From: Dermatobacter hominis
Lineage (GTDB): Bacteria; Actinomycetota; Acidimicrobiia; Acidimicrobiales; Microtrichaceae
Direction: 5' to 3'
NCBI RefSeq assembly: GCF_020715685.1
Contig: NZ_CP085840.1
Span: 3,410,001 to 3,474,000, forward strand
Length of the DNA stretch: 64,000 bases
Shown: positions 34,066-40,832 of the stretch, piece by piece
Layout: every line of letters begins with the position of its first letter
Numbering within the stretch: position 1 is the first letter of the stretch
Made by a program: the position numbers and the translations under genes
The notes under the pieces: generated by a model
What the model was told of the DNA's origin: nothing
Seen by the model: the letters and a program-made list of their open reading frames with translations, nothing else
The model's database searches: none

Positions 34066-34146
34066 GACGGGCCTCGCCGGATCGCCGGTGCCGACCGGGC
34101 CGCGCCGGGCCGATCAGCACCTGCATGAGATGACGGTGACCCCCAC

Positions 34147-35370
34147 ATGACCTCGCCCAGCGTATCGACTGCGGAACCGCCGTCCGAGCCCGACGTCGAC
34201 GCCGTGGAGCTCGAGGCCCGGCGCCGTCGGCGGCGTCGCCGCTGGGTCTGGGGCGGGGTCGGGCTCGTCGTCCTGGCGGTCATCGCCGGCGTCCTCTTCA
34301 TCCCGACGCCCTACTACCTGTTCCAGCCTGGCTCGGTCCGACCCGCCGAGACGCGCATCGACGTGACCGGAGCCGAGTCGTACGAGACCGACGGCGACGT
34401 GCTGTTCACGACCGTCTACGTCGACCAGGCGACGCTGGCCACGCTCCTGCGCGGCGTGCTCGACGACGCGGTCGAGGTCAAGACCGAGGAGGAGGTCTAC
34501 GGGCCCGACGGTCGCGACGCCTCCCGCCAGGTGAACCAGCAGCGGATGGACCTCTCGAAGCTGATCGCCACCAAGGTCGGGCTCGAGTACCTGGGGTACC
34601 CGGCGGAGTTCACGGCGCGCGGGGCGAGGGTCCTCGGCGTGAACGAGGAGGGCGGGTCGGTCGGCAAGCTCCGCGTCGGCGACGTGATCACCTCGATCGA
34701 CGGCCACGAGGTCCAGCTCCCCGGCGACATCCAGGTCGGGCTGCAGGGGAAGGCCCCGGGCGACGTGGTGACGGTCACCGCCCGCCGCGGCGACGGCGAC
34801 GACGCCGCCACGGTCGAGGAGCAGATCACGCTCGGCGCCGCGCCCACCGAGGACGACGCCGGCACGAGCACGACGCAGTCGACGACGACCACGACGGCGC
34901 CGGCGACCGGCGCCCCCGCCGACGCCGCGGCCCCGACCACCACGATGGCGCCACGGGCCGAACGGCCGGTGCTGGGCGTGTCGGTCGAACCCGCCGACCC
35001 GTCGGTCGAGTCGCCCGTGCACGTGGCGATCGACTCGGGCGACGTCACCGGCCCGTCGGCCGGCCTGGCGTGGGCGCTCGCGGTCGTCGACCGCCTCACC
35101 CCCGAGTCGCTGACCGACGGCACGGACGTCGCGGTCACCGGCGAGATCCTCTCCGACGGCACGGTCGGGCCGATCGGCGGGATCGTGCAGAAGGTGGCGG
35201 CCGTCAAGCGGGCCGGCGTGTCGACCTTCCTGTACCCGGCGTCGACGGACGAGGCAGAGCAGCGCGCCATGCGCGAGGTGGCCGGCGACGACGTGCGCCT
35301 CGTCCCCGTGGGCACGCTGAAGGAGGCCGTCGAGGCACTCCACCCCGGCGGCGTGCAGAAGCCCGGCTGA
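34147..35370 (+). CDS. YlbL-type PDZ and Lon-protease (S16) domain membrane protein
   Basis: This 407-residue protein has an Arg-rich cytoplasmic start and one membrane helix (about 34-54, VWGGVGLVVLAVIAGVLFI). A PDZ domain follows (about 155-235, ending GKLRVGDVITSIDGHEVQ and later sequence), then a C-terminal Lon-type peptidase domain (about 275-400) with the Ser motif GPSAGLAWAL and the Lys in QKVAAVKRAG, forming the Ser-Lys dyad. Such proteins (Bacillus YlbL, mycobacterial Rv3194c) face outward and process membrane or secreted proteins. A Thr/Ala-rich stretch of about 35 residues lies between the PDZ and peptidase domains. Two genes downstream is the UPF0182 gene, its usual mycobacterial neighbour. 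Confidence 0.92.
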   Translation: MTSPSVSTAEPPSEPDVDAVELEARRRRRRRRWVWGGVGLVVLAVIAGVLFIPTPYYLFQPGSVRPAETRIDVTGAESYETDGDVLFTTVYVDQATLATLLRGVLDDAVEVKTEEEVYGPDGRDASRQVNQQRMDLSKLIATKVGLEYLGYPAEFTARGARVLGVNEEGGSVGKLRVGDVITSIDGHEVQLPGDIQVGLQGKAPGDVVTVTARRGDGDDAATVEEQITLGAAPTEDDAGTSTTQSTTTTTAPATGAPADAAAPTTTMAPRAERPVLGVSVEPADPSVESPVHVAIDSGDVTGPSAGLAWALAVVDRLTPESLTDGTDVAVTGEILSDGTVGPIGGIVQKVAAVKRAGVSTFLYPASTDEAEQRAMREVAGDDVRLVPVGTLKEAVEALHPGGVQKPG

Positions 35371-35475
35371 TCGCGGCGGGCCACCTGGTCCTCGATCGCG
35401 CGGGCACCCCGGCCCCCGGTGACGGGGCGGGCACCGCGACCTCGACCCGTCCGCCATCGCCGCGCGTGGCCCCCG

Positions 35476-35481
35476 TAGCAT
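35476..35481 (+). promoter_or_regulatory. -10-like box TAGCAT for leaderless DivIVA-like gene
   Basis: TAGCAT is followed by six bases and ATG 35488, with no Shine-Dalgarno sequence. Confidence 0.5.
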
Positions 35482-35487
35482 TCGGCC

Positions 35488-37785
35488 ATGGCCGACCTCG
35501 TGTCCGATCCCGTGCCCGATCCGCCTGATCTGGATGCCGGCACGCTCGCCTCGGCGGGGTTCACCCGGGCGCGCAAGGGGTTCGAGCCGGCCGAGGTCCG
35601 GGCGATGCTCGGCCGGGCCTCCGATGCGCTGCGGGCCTGGAAGGAGCGCGACGACCGCCTCGTCGCCCGCCTCGACGAGCTCGAGCGTCGCCTGGAGCAG
35701 TCGCAGGAGCTGGACGAGCAGCGGATCACCGCCGTGCTGGGCGAGGAGACGGCCCGCATCGTCGCCGCAGCCCGGGAGGCCGCCAGCGAGATCCGCGCCA
35801 AGGCCGAGGAGCAGGCCGCTCGCCTGGTGGCCGAGACCGAGGAGGCGGCCACCGCCAGCGCCGCCGCCCTGACCGACGAGGCGACGGCGCTCCGCGACGA
35901 CGCCGCCCGCCTGCACGAGGAGGCGACCGCCGCCGCCGAGGCGACCAGGGCGGAGGCGCAGGACCACGCCGACCGGCTGCGCGCCGAGGCATCCGCGGAG
36001 CACGACTCGCTCCTCGCCGCGGCCAAGACCGTGCTCGACGAGCGCACCGCCGAGGCGGAGGCCGTCGCGAGCGGCATCCGCGAGGCTGCGCAGATCGAGC
36101 TCGACGGCGCCCACGCCGAGGGCGACCGCCTGCGCGAGGAGTCGCGCGAGGCTGCGGCGGCCGAGGTCGAGCGCGCTCGCGCCGAGGGTCGGGCGATGGT
36201 CGAGGAGGCGCGCCAGCTCCGGCGGCAGATGCTGCAGGACCTGGCCGAGCGGCGGCGCACCGCCCGCCGCCAGATCGAGGCCGCCCGCGCCGGCCGGGAC
36301 CGCATCGTCGAGGCGCTCGGGACCGCGGGCGATCGGGTCACGCAGGTCATCGCCGAGCTCTCCGGCGCCGACGACCAGGCCCAGCGGGCCGCCGACGCCG
36401 CGGCCGCGGCGGTCGACGACGACATCGACGAGGTCGTGGCCGAGCTCGAGACCGGCCTCACCCTGGGCGGGCTGCCGCTGCTCGAGGACCCCGATGATGA
36501 CCTGCTGGCCGAGGAGGCGCTGTCCCCGGGCGACATCGACCTGTCGGAGGCGGGCACGATCCCGCCCGACGACGCGATCGGCACCGTCGCGGTCGACGAG
36601 GTCACGGTCGGAGAGGTCGTGATCGACGTCGCCGACGAGCCCGACCCACCGGCCGAGGGCGGTCCAGGAGCCGACGAGCCGGGCGGTGGCGCCCCGGCCG
36701 ACGAGGGCATCGCGACCGAGCGGGTCACGACGATCGTCGACACCGACGAGGAGCCCAGCCCCGGTGCGACGGTGCACGACCTGTTCGAGCGCATCCGGGC
36801 CGAGCGCCGACGCGACGACGACCTCGGGCCGTCGGTCGACGCCGGCGGTGCGGCCGCGGTCCTCGACGACGCCTTCGCCGACGACGAGGACGACCTCGAC
36901 GAGGCGGACGACACCGACGACGGCGACGCCGCCGGGCTGGCGTCGGTCGTCGTGCTGGAGCAACCGGCCGACGACGTCACCGAGCCCGACGGGCCCGACG
37001 ACGGCGACCAGGTGGCTGCGGTGATCGAGTCCACTGCGGTCGAGGTCGTGGTGCCGGGCGCCGGCGACGACACAGTCGCCGAGGCCGTCGCGGCCACGTC
37101 CGCGCTGGACCGGCGGGACGCCCTCCTGGCGCCGACCGAGAAGTCGCTCGCCCGGTCGCTCAAGCGCCTGGTGTCCGACGAGCAGAACGAGGTCCTCGAC
37201 CGCCTGCGCCGCATCCGGCGCGGCATGCCCGAGCTCGATGCCCTGCTCCCCGAGGGCGAGGACGTCGCCACGTTCATCGACGCCCTCCGGGCCGACTACG
37301 CAGCGGCGGCGGCTGCCGGCGCGGCGTTCTGGGACGCCGAGTCCGGCGCCGAGCACCCGGGCCCGGTCGGCGACCGGCTCGACGACGAGGTCGTCGAGGG
37401 CGGGCTCGAGATCCGTGTCGCCGAGCTCCTCGGTCTGCGCCGGGCGCACATCCAGCGGGCGCTCGAGCACGCCGCCGACGAGGGCGTCGAACTGGCCGAG
37501 CTCGGCGACCACGTGCGCGCCGCGTACCGCGAGTGGCGCACGCGGTCGGTCCCCGAGCTGGCCGGCGACCTGGCGGCGTCGGGCTTCGCGCTGGGCGAGC
37601 AGGCCGCGGCAGGGCAGGGGACCGCCTGGTGCTGGATGGTCGACAACGGCGGGCTGCCGTGCAGCGACGCCGAGGACAACGCGCTGGCCGGCTCGGTGAG
37701 CTGCGGCGCGACCTTTCCGACCGGGGACGTGATCCCCCCGGCGCACTCAGGATGCCGATGCATCCTGGTCCCACCCCCTCGGTAA
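35488..37785 (+). CDS. DivIVA-like coiled-coil protein with phage Mu gpF-like C-terminus
   Basis: This 765-residue protein has four parts. Residues about 20-55 (AGFTRARKGFEPAEVRAMLGRA) match the DivIVA N-terminal motif that binds curved membrane. From about 50 to 325 is a long Ala/Glu/Arg coiled coil. About 330-545 is acidic and disordered. The last 215 residues form a helical region followed by a Cys/His-rich end: C715, C725, C739 and IPPAHSGCRC with H753, C756 and C758. That end resembles the closing motif of phage Mu gpF-type head morphogenesis domains, but no other phage genes are nearby. It lies between PDZ-Lon and UPF0182 genes, suggesting a cell envelope or polar role. The chimera is unusual; the C-terminal function is open. 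Confidence 0.75.
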   Translation: MADLVSDPVPDPPDLDAGTLASAGFTRARKGFEPAEVRAMLGRASDALRAWKERDDRLVARLDELERRLEQSQELDEQRITAVLGEETARIVAAAREAASEIRAKAEEQAARLVAETEEAATASAAALTDEATALRDDAARLHEEATAAAEATRAEAQDHADRLRAEASAEHDSLLAAAKTVLDERTAEAEAVASGIREAAQIELDGAHAEGDRLREESREAAAAEVERARAEGRAMVEEARQLRRQMLQDLAERRRTARRQIEAARAGRDRIVEALGTAGDRVTQVIAELSGADDQAQRAADAAAAAVDDDIDEVVAELETGLTLGGLPLLEDPDDDLLAEEALSPGDIDLSEAGTIPPDDAIGTVAVDEVTVGEVVIDVADEPDPPAEGGPGADEPGGGAPADEGIATERVTTIVDTDEEPSPGATVHDLFERIRAERRRDDDLGPSVDAGGAAAVLDDAFADDEDDLDEADDTDDGDAAGLASVVVLEQPADDVTEPDGPDDGDQVAAVIESTAVEVVVPGAGDDTVAEAVAATSALDRRDALLAPTEKSLARSLKRLVSDEQNEVLDRLRRIRRGMPELDALLPEGEDVATFIDALRADYAAAAAAGAAFWDAESGAEHPGPVGDRLDDEVVEGGLEIRVAELLGLRRAHIQRALEHAADEGVELAELGDHVRAAYREWRTRSVPELAGDLAASGFALGEQAAAGQGTAWCWMVDNGGLPCSDAEDNALAGSVSCGATFPTGDVIPPAHSGCRCILVPPPR

Positions 37786-37796: not shown

Positions 37797-40700
37797 GTGC
37801 GGATGCCCGACGACATGCCCCGCCCCTCGCGGCGCGAGCGGCGCAAGGAACGGGGTCCGCGGCCGAACCGGGTGCGCTGGATCGTCGGCATCCTCATCGG
37901 CGTGCTCGTGGTGCTGGCGCTGTCGCTGCGGGCCATCGCCACCTTCTGGACCGACTACCTGTGGTTCGACTCGCTCGACCTGACCGCCGTCTGGCGACGG
38001 CTGCTGTCGGCCCGGCTCACGCTCGGCATCGGCGCCACGCTCGTCTTCTTCCTGATCCTCTGGATCAACCTGCTGGTCGCCGACCGCCTGGCGCCCAAGT
38101 TCCGGCCGGTCACCGGCCCCGAGGACGACGTCGTGGTCCGCTACCGGCAGCTGGTCGCCGGTCGCCAGCGGGTCCTGAGCTTCGGCCTCGCGCTCCTCGT
38201 CGCCGTCGTCCCCGGGCTGGGCGCCGCGAGCCAGTGGCGGTCCTGGCTCCTGTTCCGCTACGGCGGCTCGTTCGACAAGGCCGACGCGCAGTTCGGCACC
38301 GACATCGGCTTCTACGTCTTCAAGCTGCCGTTCCTGTCGCAGGTGGTGGACTGGCTGTTCGCGTTCCTGCTCGTCACGGTCGTGATCGTGGCGATCGTCC
38401 ACTACCTGAACGGCGCGATCCGGCTGCAGCCGATGGGCGAGCGGATCACCCAGAACGCCAAGGCGCAGATCTCCGTGCTGCTGGCCGCCACGGCGCTGGT
38501 GAAGGCCGCCGACTACGTGCTGCAGCGCTACGAGCTCACGTTCACCGCCGGCAAGTCGTTCGACGGCGCGGGCTACACGGCCGTGAACTCCCGCATCCCC
38601 GCGATCGAGTTCCTCATCCTGATCTCGGTCTTCGTCGCGGTGCTGTTCATCATCAACATCTGGCGCCGCGGCTGGATCATGCCGGGCATCGTGGTGTCCC
38701 TGTGGGTGCTGGTCGCCCTGGTGGTCGGCTCGGTGTACCCGGCGTTCGTCCAGCGCTTCCAGGTCTCGCCCGCCGAGCTCTCGAAGGAGCGGCCGTACAT
38801 CGAGCGCAACATCGAGGCCACGCGGGACGCACTCGGCCTGGCATCGGTGGAGCAGGTCAACTTCGACTACCAGAAGACCGTCACGCAGGAGGCCATCGAC
38901 GGCCAGCGGGTCAACCTCACCGACGCCCGCCTGCTCGACCCCGACGTCATCAAGCCGACGATCCAGGAGCTCGAGTTCGAGCGCGAGTTCTACCAGTTCG
39001 ACGACGTCGACGTGGACCGGTACACGGTCGAGGACCCCGAGAGCGCGGGGGCGACGAGCCGGGTCCCGGCCATCGTGTCGGCCCGGGAGCTGAACGCCAG
39101 CGGGATCCAGAACCCGACGTGGGAAAAGCTCCACCTCGTCTTCACCCACGGCTACGGCCTGGCGCTGGCGCCGGCCAACACCACCAACGCCCGCGGCGAG
39201 CCCGACTTCCTGGTCCAGGGCATCCCCGCCCGCACGACCGGGCTCCCCGAGCTGGAGCGGCCCGAGATCTACCACGGCGAGGACATGGCGGGGTACGCCA
39301 TCGTCGGCACGGACCAGAAGGAGCTGTCGACCGACCAGGTGTCGACGAAGTACACCGGCAAGTCGGGCGTGGCGCTCGACTCGGTCTTCCGCCGGGCCGC
39401 CTTCGCCCTGCGCTTCGGCGAGATCGAACCGCTGATCTCGAGCAACCTCACCGACAAGTCGAAGGTCATCTACCAGCGCGACGTCAAGGAGCGGGTCCGG
39501 ACCATCGCCCCGTACCTGACGCTCGACACCGATCCGTACCCCGTGATGGTCGACGGCCGGATCAAGTACATCGTCGACGCCTACACGACCGCCGACACCT
39601 ACCCGTACGGCGAGGAGATCGACGCCCGCACCATCGACGCGTCGGTGAACGGCTCGTTCAACTACATCCGCAACAGCGTCAAGGCCGTGGTCGACGCCTA
39701 CGACGGCACGGTGACGATGTACCTCACCGACACCCTGTACGGCGGCGAGAAGGACCCGATCATCCGGGCGTACGCCAAGGCCTTCCCCGACCTGTACGAG
39801 ACCGACATCCCCGACTCGCTCAGCCGCCACTTCCGGTACCCCGAGCTGCTGTTCGAGGTCCAGACCACGCTCTGGGGCCGCTACCACCAGTCGGACCCGT
39901 CGGCGTTCTTCAACAACAGCGACCGCTGGAGCGTCGCCCAGCAGCCGCCGAACTCGGCGTCGACCCCGATCACGACGGACCCGACGACCGGGCAGGCCAC
40001 GTCGAACCTCGACCGGATCCAGCCCTACTACCAGATGATCCAGCTCACGCCCGACTCCCAGCCGGAGTTCGTCCTGACGCGGCCGTTCGTGCTCGCGTCC
40101 GGCGACGAGAGCGGACGCAACCTGACCGCGCTGATGGTCGCGTCGAACGACCCGGGCAGCTACGGCAAGCTCAGACAGATCGTCATGGCGTCCGACGGCG
40201 AGACGTCCGGCGGGTCCGCACCCAAGGTCGACGGGCCGCTGCAGGCCAACCAGACGATCGTGACCGACGCCCGCGTGTCGGAGTACCAGACGATCGTGGG
40301 CCGGAACGGGTCGAGCGTCCGCTACGGCAACATGCTGATCCTGCCCTTCCGGGACTCGCTGCTGTACGTGCGGCCCGTGTACGCGAAGGCCGAGCAGAGC
40401 GGGCGGTTCGCGCTGACCCGGGTCGCGGTGACCAACGGCGACGTCGTCGGCTTCGGCGACACGATCGACGTGGCCGTGGCGGACCTGCTCGACGGCGACG
40501 CCGACGGGGCGGTGGAGCAGCCGGCCGAGCCCGTCCCGCCCCCCGACGGCGGGACCACGACCACCACGACGACGCCGCAGGAGGGCGGCCGGACGGCGAC
40601 GCAGCTGCTGGCCGACGCCGACGCGAAGTTCGCCGAGGCGGACGACAGGCTGAAGGCCGGCGACCTCGGCGGCTACCAGACCGCGGTCGCCCAGGCCCGC

Positions 40701-40832
40701 GACCTGGTGCGCCAGGCCGACGCCGCGCTCGAGAAGGCGACGTCCACGACCGCGCCCGGCTCGACCGCGTCGAGCACCACGACGACGACCGCACCCCCCG
40801 CCGCGACGGGCACCGCCGCCGGCGGCGGCTGA
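37797..40832 (+). CDS. UPF0182 family membrane protein
   Basis: From GTG 37797 the protein has 1011 residues, near the usual size of UPF0182 members such as mycobacterial Rv3193c. The N-terminal third holds about seven membrane helices (first at about 24-45). Family features include WTDYLWFDSLDL just after the first helix and PYIERNIEATRDALGL. The large extracytoplasmic domain contains YVDAY-like and FRYPELLFEVQTTLWGRYH segments. The final 110 residues are a Thr/Ala-rich, partly coiled tail with AQARDLVRQADAALEKA. Its function is unknown; an ATG at 37803 is an alternative start. Position near the YlbL-type gene is conserved in actinobacteria, with a DivIVA-like gene between them here. Confidence 0.93.
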   Translation: MRMPDDMPRPSRRERRKERGPRPNRVRWIVGILIGVLVVLALSLRAIATFWTDYLWFDSLDLTAVWRRLLSARLTLGIGATLVFFLILWINLLVADRLAPKFRPVTGPEDDVVVRYRQLVAGRQRVLSFGLALLVAVVPGLGAASQWRSWLLFRYGGSFDKADAQFGTDIGFYVFKLPFLSQVVDWLFAFLLVTVVIVAIVHYLNGAIRLQPMGERITQNAKAQISVLLAATALVKAADYVLQRYELTFTAGKSFDGAGYTAVNSRIPAIEFLILISVFVAVLFIINIWRRGWIMPGIVVSLWVLVALVVGSVYPAFVQRFQVSPAELSKERPYIERNIEATRDALGLASVEQVNFDYQKTVTQEAIDGQRVNLTDARLLDPDVIKPTIQELEFEREFYQFDDVDVDRYTVEDPESAGATSRVPAIVSARELNASGIQNPTWEKLHLVFTHGYGLALAPANTTNARGEPDFLVQGIPARTTGLPELERPEIYHGEDMAGYAIVGTDQKELSTDQVSTKYTGKSGVALDSVFRRAAFALRFGEIEPLISSNLTDKSKVIYQRDVKERVRTIAPYLTLDTDPYPVMVDGRIKYIVDAYTTADTYPYGEEIDARTIDASVNGSFNYIRNSVKAVVDAYDGTVTMYLTDTLYGGEKDPIIRAYAKAFPDLYETDIPDSLSRHFRYPELLFEVQTTLWGRYHQSDPSAFFNNSDRWSVAQQPPNSASTPITTDPTTGQATSNLDRIQPYYQMIQLTPDSQPEFVLTRPFVLASGDESGRNLTALMVASNDPGSYGKLRQIVMASDGETSGGSAPKVDGPLQANQTIVTDARVSEYQTIVGRNGSSVRYGNMLILPFRDSLLYVRPVYAKAEQSGRFALTRVAVTNGDVVGFGDTIDVAVADLLDGDADGAVEQPAEPVPPPDGGTTTTTTTPQEGGRTATQLLADADAKFAEADDRLKAGDLGGYQTAVAQARDLVRQADAALEKATSTTAPGSTASSTTTTTAPPAATGTAAGGG

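Follow-up and report, generated by a model that had tools for sequence, protein, structure and literature searches.

A phage MuF-type domain fused to a DivIVA-like protein and co-inherited with UPF0182 in Acidimicrobiia and related actinobacteria

Why should a gene that begins like DivIVA and ends like a minor head protein of phage Mu lie among envelope genes? The question is raised by one long frame in a 64,000-nucleotide stretch of the Dermatobacter hominis genome (contig NZ_CP085840.1; hereafter the window). A first-pass annotation, made from the letters alone, had proposed for it a DivIVA-type motif, a coiled coil, an acidic disordered region, and a Cys/His-rich end resembling that of Mu gpF.

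The gene and its neighbors

The features of the locus, all on the forward strand, are as follows.

34147..35370, +, PDZ-Lon membrane protease, upstream (PF05362 and PF13180, above the Pfam cut-offs)
35488..37785, +, DivIVA-MuF chimera (open frame of 765 codons plus stop)
35524..35880, +, DivIVA-like N-terminal domain and first coiled coil, residues 13-131 (Pfam, profile, AF2 model)
35881..36387, +, long predicted helical or coiled-coil stretch, about residues 132-300, boundary approximate (sequence)
36388..37104, +, acidic low-complexity linker, about residues 301-539 (charge counts)
36778..36804, +, conserved short motif DLFERIRAE inside the linker, residues 431-439 (homologous frames)
37105..37782, +, domesticated MuF domain, residues 540-765, a helical bundle plus a C-terminal Cys/His cap (profiles, hhalign, fold)
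37633..37761, +, Cys/His cap with W716, D719, C725, D730, P744-T745, P751, H753, and C756-R757-C758 (counts in 53 homologs)
37803..40832, +, UPF0182 polytopic membrane protein, downstream (PF03699, 796 bits, above cut-off)

The continuous frame is exactly as first described (35488-37785, + strand, 765 aa); the coiled coil, the acidic disordered region, and the closing IPPAHSGCRC are all present, and C715, C725, C739, H753, C756, and C758 stand at the positions given for them. A homolog search recovered one chimera copy each in 51 of 61 related genomes (E ≤ 0.001), mostly in frames of 550 to 950 aa, and the frame is genuine and conserved, not a chance ORF. An antisense ORF of 1,210 codons (34114-37746, − strand) overlies the chimera gene; large antisense ORFs in this region are typical artefacts of GC-rich DNA.

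The neighbors likewise agree with the annotation: Pfam places PDZ and Lon_C domains upstream and UPF0182 downstream, with no phage genes adjacent. The UPF0182 ATG at 37803 lies 17 nt past the chimera stop, and the two genes are likely cotranscribed. When the full-length protein was scanned with Pfam, DivIVA reached 27.8 bits, just below the cut-off of 28, and the C-terminus had no match; proteins of this type are therefore likely annotated as hypothetical or DivIVA-like.

DivIVA-like domain and linker

The DivIVA-type motif, placed at first at about residues 20-55, was located at residues 25-38 (FTRARKGFEPAEV), and the 119-residue subdomain scanned alone scored 36 bits with Pfam DivIVA (cut-off, 28) on residues 13-131. 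The same family matched 35 of 35 aligned homologs (best, 9e-18). Searched against solved structures, the N-terminal profile found DivIVA (2wuj, E = 2.4e-10), Wag31 (6lfa, 5.9e-7), and GpsB (6gqa, 8.1e-6). The loop reads KGFEPAEV in the window protein, with the G and the EV invariant in the N-terminal alignment of homologs, and the AlphaFold (AF2) model (pLDDT, 94) has the short helix, loop, and long helix expected of DivIVA. Nearly all Foldseek matches of this model in the PDB were GpsB, Wag31, or DivIVA, all at E > 0.5, perhaps owing to a query that is mostly one long helix. By its sequence profile, then, the N-terminus is a true DivIVA-like domain. Phe17 of Bacillus subtilis DivIVA, changed in the F17A mutant structure 2wuk, inserts into the membrane; at the equivalent position the window protein and most homologs have a basic residue, and some homologs have Phe.

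A first search, with a single match, had made the chimera appear to be the only DivIVA of its genome. This was rejected, as a canonical DivIVA of this genome adjoins sepF, and the window protein is therefore a second paralog.

Beyond the coiled coil, the linker has no Lys or Arg at all in residues 301-400 and 451-500 by charge counts. Within it a peptide with the consensus v-x-x-LFARlRA stands out, present in 69 of 90 long frames of homologs, the rest of the linker being variable. This peptide, which persists even where a DivIVA beside UPF0182 lacks MuF (L201), may be the true client-binding site. An LFARlRA-type peptide was also seen at the equivalent place in loci L079-L158.

Phage homology of the C-terminal domain

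The resemblance to Mu gpF-type head proteins, first noticed from the closing motif, is borne out by profiles, alignments, and predicted fold. A profile search with the C-terminus matched phrog_2662 (portal protein with a MuF end) in PHROG for 26 of 26 members (best, 3.2e-15), several other PHROG head families likewise matched members of the domain, and Pfam Phage_Mu_F (PF04233) did so weakly (7 of 26 members; best, 0.0019). Searching the Dermatobacter genome itself with PF04233 gave zero matches, the window copy included, so Pfam alone would miss the phage link; a tblastn search of phage records with the last 73 residues also gave nothing significant, and profiles were required.

A scan of IMG/VR yielded 18 phage loci, of which three were examined: two encode a terminase, a portal, and a separate MuF protein (L031 and L033) and one a terminase and a portal-MuF fusion (L043), with a major capsid gene also present in L033 and L043. 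Against the Phage_Mu_F cut-off of 29.6, the MuF protein of L033 scores 24.2 and falls short, and those of L031 and L043 lie above it. Aligned by hhalign, 53 cellular and 11 phage sequences gave a probability of 99.3 and an E value of 7e-21 over 119 columns spanning helix and cap; the phage sequences were selected for resembling the query, so the independent evidence comes from PHROG and Pfam.

The AlphaFold model of the C-terminal part (pLDDT, 94.6; pTM, 0.91) gave 58 viral Foldseek matches at E ≤ 0.001, with TM scores up to 0.77, and the named ones were nearly all portal, minor capsid, head morphogenesis, or MuF-fusion-type phage proteins; the similarity to phage head proteins thus extends to the predicted fold. 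Profile and fold searches of the PDB with the same part found no homolog, no significant match, and no solved MuF structure. The identification of the C-terminal ~220 residues as a diverged phage MuF domain (Mu gpF/SPP1 gp7) is supported by these comparisons. Neither of the two outcomes named beforehand as refuting the phage link, a missing fold similarity or unconserved Cys/His residues, was observed.

In an approximate tree from a short alignment, a branch with support of 0.964 parts all 41 cellular copies from the 11 of phages, a split that would fit one domestication. Portal families are absent from the Dermatobacter genome and present in only 5 of 41 genomes searched, and no terminase, portal, or capsid genes were found among the neighbors of the chimera. 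The MuF domain is homologous, but the chimera gene is no phage head gene. Genome G060 has a frame of 686 aa whose end is MuF-like (L213); with no UPF0182 on its 12-kb stretch, it is probably an ordinary prophage protein and a useful control.

The Cys/His cap and variant architectures

Not all six Cys/His residues of the original motif are conserved. Among 53 aligned homologs, C725 and H753 occur in 52 each and C756, R757, and C758 in all 53, and these stand as motif members; C715 (16/53) and C739 (7/53) were rejected. In the C-terminal alignment, W716, C725, D730, PT, PPAH, G755, and CRC are invariant or nearly so, and D719 is found in 45 of 53. The commonest ending is CxxC...H..CRC, that is, CPDC-DN-L-G...FPTG...PPAHPGCRC, and phage MuF proteins have the same Cys/His set as the cellular cap. 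The second Cys of the CxxC is present in 30 of 53, with Ala or Gly in the others; the window copy has A728, and its lineage lacks this Cys. C715 and C728 are nearly exclusive (15 versus 29 sequences, with one having both and eight neither; n = 53, a count inflated by related sequences), which could reflect a metal-ligand swap.

Several genomes depart from the full architecture. In G048 (twice), G058, G036, and G235 (twice), DivIVA and the MuF helices are kept and the frame ends before the cap, one of the G048 copies sitting at a contig end; these capless chimeras (L203 to L207 and L212) are apparently secondary losses of the cap in several lineages. The MuF-less DivIVA at L201 (genome G043) is 333 aa long and carries its peptide as LFARIRAD. 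From such variants, some capless, some without MuF, and some without the loop, the MuF helical part and the peptide seem to be the more constant parts, and the cap seems usual but dispensable. At L160 and L166, MuF-UPF0182 pairs were observed in which the MuF protein has no N-terminal DivIVA loop.

Distribution and linkage to UPF0182

At least 210 bacterial stretches in a scan of GTDB contigs encode relatives of the domain, mostly in Acidimicrobiia and also in other actinobacterial classes. The best 80 of the 210 are labeled, with few exceptions, as Acidimicrobiia or actinobacterial bins, strains of Aquihabitans, Aciditerrimonas, and Acidiferrimicrobium among them. Three loci (L085, L087, and L100) carry MAG titles of Bifidobacterium breve or Acidobacteria, yet have an Acidimicrobiia-type locus and look mislabeled. 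Of 396 genomes sampled from the phylum, 49 carry the chimera: all sampled members of the order to which Dermatobacter belongs, part of its class, and genomes of other classes; a wider profile added six class members overlooked by the first. The fusion is kept as a core gene throughout one actinobacterial class and several related classes.

When the chimera and its neighbors are surveyed in related genomes, the arrangement of the window recurs. In 96 of 98 loci the next gene downstream of the chimera is UPF0182, the remaining two loci stopping at a contig edge, and the two genes overlap or are separated by a few tens of nucleotides; PDZ-Lon is upstream in 65 of 80 loci. All 49 carriers have UPF0182, versus 252 of the 396 genomes overall (hypergeometric P = 3.6e-11, not corrected for phylogeny). 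Two genomes, G235 (L206 and L207) and G048 (L204 and L205), have two UPF0182 genes each, every one with its own chimera, so that the whole pair is duplicated. Three members of the order (G041, G052, and G060) have neither gene, the weak match in G060 being the probable prophage-type frame at L213. UPF0182 is the partner that travels with the chimera. Most actinobacteria have UPF0182 without the chimera, which is therefore an add-on; typical Actinomycetes have PDZ-Lon and then UPF0182, with nothing detected between them.

Proposed function and alternatives

The architecture, homology, conservation, operon, and co-inheritance described above are established by computation, and on them we base a proposal of about even odds (probability roughly 0.5): the chimera would serve specifically its own operon as a second DivIVA-type scaffold and, through its domesticated MuF head, dock a client in the envelope, most likely UPF0182. 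The DivIVA part, to judge from its relatives, would dimerize and sit on curved membrane at the pole or septum; the Cys/His cap, given its pattern, would hold zinc as a structural site; and the MuF helical bundle, part of a structural head component in phages, would have been put to new use as a docking head, collecting an envelope client there. Genetic linkage makes the co-inherited membrane protein UPF0182 the most likely client. Several observations weigh against this reading: most actinobacteria have UPF0182 alone, the linkage may reflect shared regulation, the cap is missing from some lineages and so is not always needed, and a basic residue replaces the membrane-inserting Phe in most copies. 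We also suggest, tentatively, that an ancient actinobacterial lineage domesticated a phage portal-associated MuF and made it the part that binds cargo in a dedicated DivIVA-type scaffold, which would position the UPF0182 membrane machine.

The MuF domain might instead be an inert cap for oligomerization or stability with no client of its own, the scaffold acting through the linker peptide and the coiled coil in general cell-pole organization. Such a role would suit the several lineages that shed the cap and keep the helical part, and also G043, which retains DivIVA and peptide beside UPF0182 without MuF; we nevertheless regard it as unlikely, as the residues of the cap hardly vary within a class and are found again in others, beyond what a filler would need. 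The same residues could be read as a redox or metal sensor, in which metal or disulfide stress at the cap would alter scaffold assembly and tie envelope growth to stress. The conserved CRC pair and the near-exclusive alternation of the variable fourth Cys between C715 and C728 (15 and 29 of 53) are in keeping with sensing, but phage MuF proteins share the Cys/His set, a structural role is simpler there, and no sensor partner is known, which makes a sensor improbable.

The phage origin of the domain invites two further explanations. Defense genes are usually patchy and island-borne. The chimera, in contrast, is a core gene of long standing, present once per genome within a fixed housekeeping operon, and we think it very improbable that the captured minor-head domain is an anti-phage decoy poisoning virion assembly of MuF-type phages, a role that would also leave the fusion to a DivIVA scaffold unexplained; in its favor are the phage derivation of the domain and the existence of defenses that block virion assembly (PMC10884400). 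Least credible is a prophage or gene-transfer-agent component still building particles: although the closest noncellular relatives are portal-MuF proteins, the absence of packaging genes (terminase, portal, and capsid) from the neighborhood and of the portal family from the genome, together with the N-terminal DivIVA fusion, largely refutes it. The docking scaffold is our preferred reading.

If it is true, envelope organization in these bacteria uses a part borrowed from capsid assembly, and the chimera offers a first way into the role of UPF0182, a family that is widespread, has no assigned function, and is tied to the scaffold. It also illustrates how DivIVA proteins might become specific for a client. 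A literature search on UPF0182 function found no mechanism. Rv3193c of Mycobacterium tuberculosis is a member of this family. The only outside hint to UPF0182 function that we found comes from a transposon screen of a cell-division mutant, in which this 7-TM protein was underrepresented (PMC8093794).

Comparison with known systems

The viral head parts that cells are known to have domesticated are mainly those of shells and nanocompartments. In the chimera, a domain of minor head proteins has been built into a cytoskeleton-like scaffold and is retained throughout a bacterial class. Open-licence papers searched for a DivIVA-MuF fusion, for DivIVA with head morphogenesis, or for domesticated phage Mu F contained no report of one. 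With the phage MuF proteins (PF04233; Mu gpF/gp30, SPP1 gp7; phrog_2662) the chimera shares the C-terminal helical bundle and the CxxC...H..CRC end. It differs in being a cellular core gene without a portal or capsid partner and in placing the domain behind a DivIVA coiled coil; moreover, the phage TE motif ahead of the cap is replaced, and the window lineage lacks the second CxxC Cys.

MuF-based polymorphic toxins and polyvalent proteins also join MuF to nonstructural modules, but there MuF is combined with effectors in phages and prophages (PMC5512222), whereas in the chimera it is C-terminal, has no effector, and belongs to a housekeeping operon. No toxin family was found behind MuF in Pfam or NCBIfam, MuF being the last domain.

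The short N-terminal helix, the (R/K)G(Y/F)xxxEV loop, and the long dimer-type coiled coil are shared with DivIVA/Wag31 (PF05103), from which the chimera differs by lying outside the sepF cluster and by adding a long acidic linker and a folded C-terminal domain. DivIVA-like proteins have a conserved [R]GYDxxEV-type loop ahead of a heptad coiled coil, and in the survey of Martinez-Goikoetxea and Lupas (2023) the only additional folded domain, called unique, was a Ser/Thr kinase in one PolyDIV cluster (PMC9858780). The pattern used in that survey (PMC9858780), GY[DN]xx[QE]V[DN], would miss the GFEPAEVR of the window protein. PolyDIV-kinase proteins and the chimera are thus both DivIVA-like with an extra folded domain, the former combining two to eight DivIVA-like domains with a Ser/Thr kinase (PMC9858780) and the latter one DivIVA-like domain with MuF.
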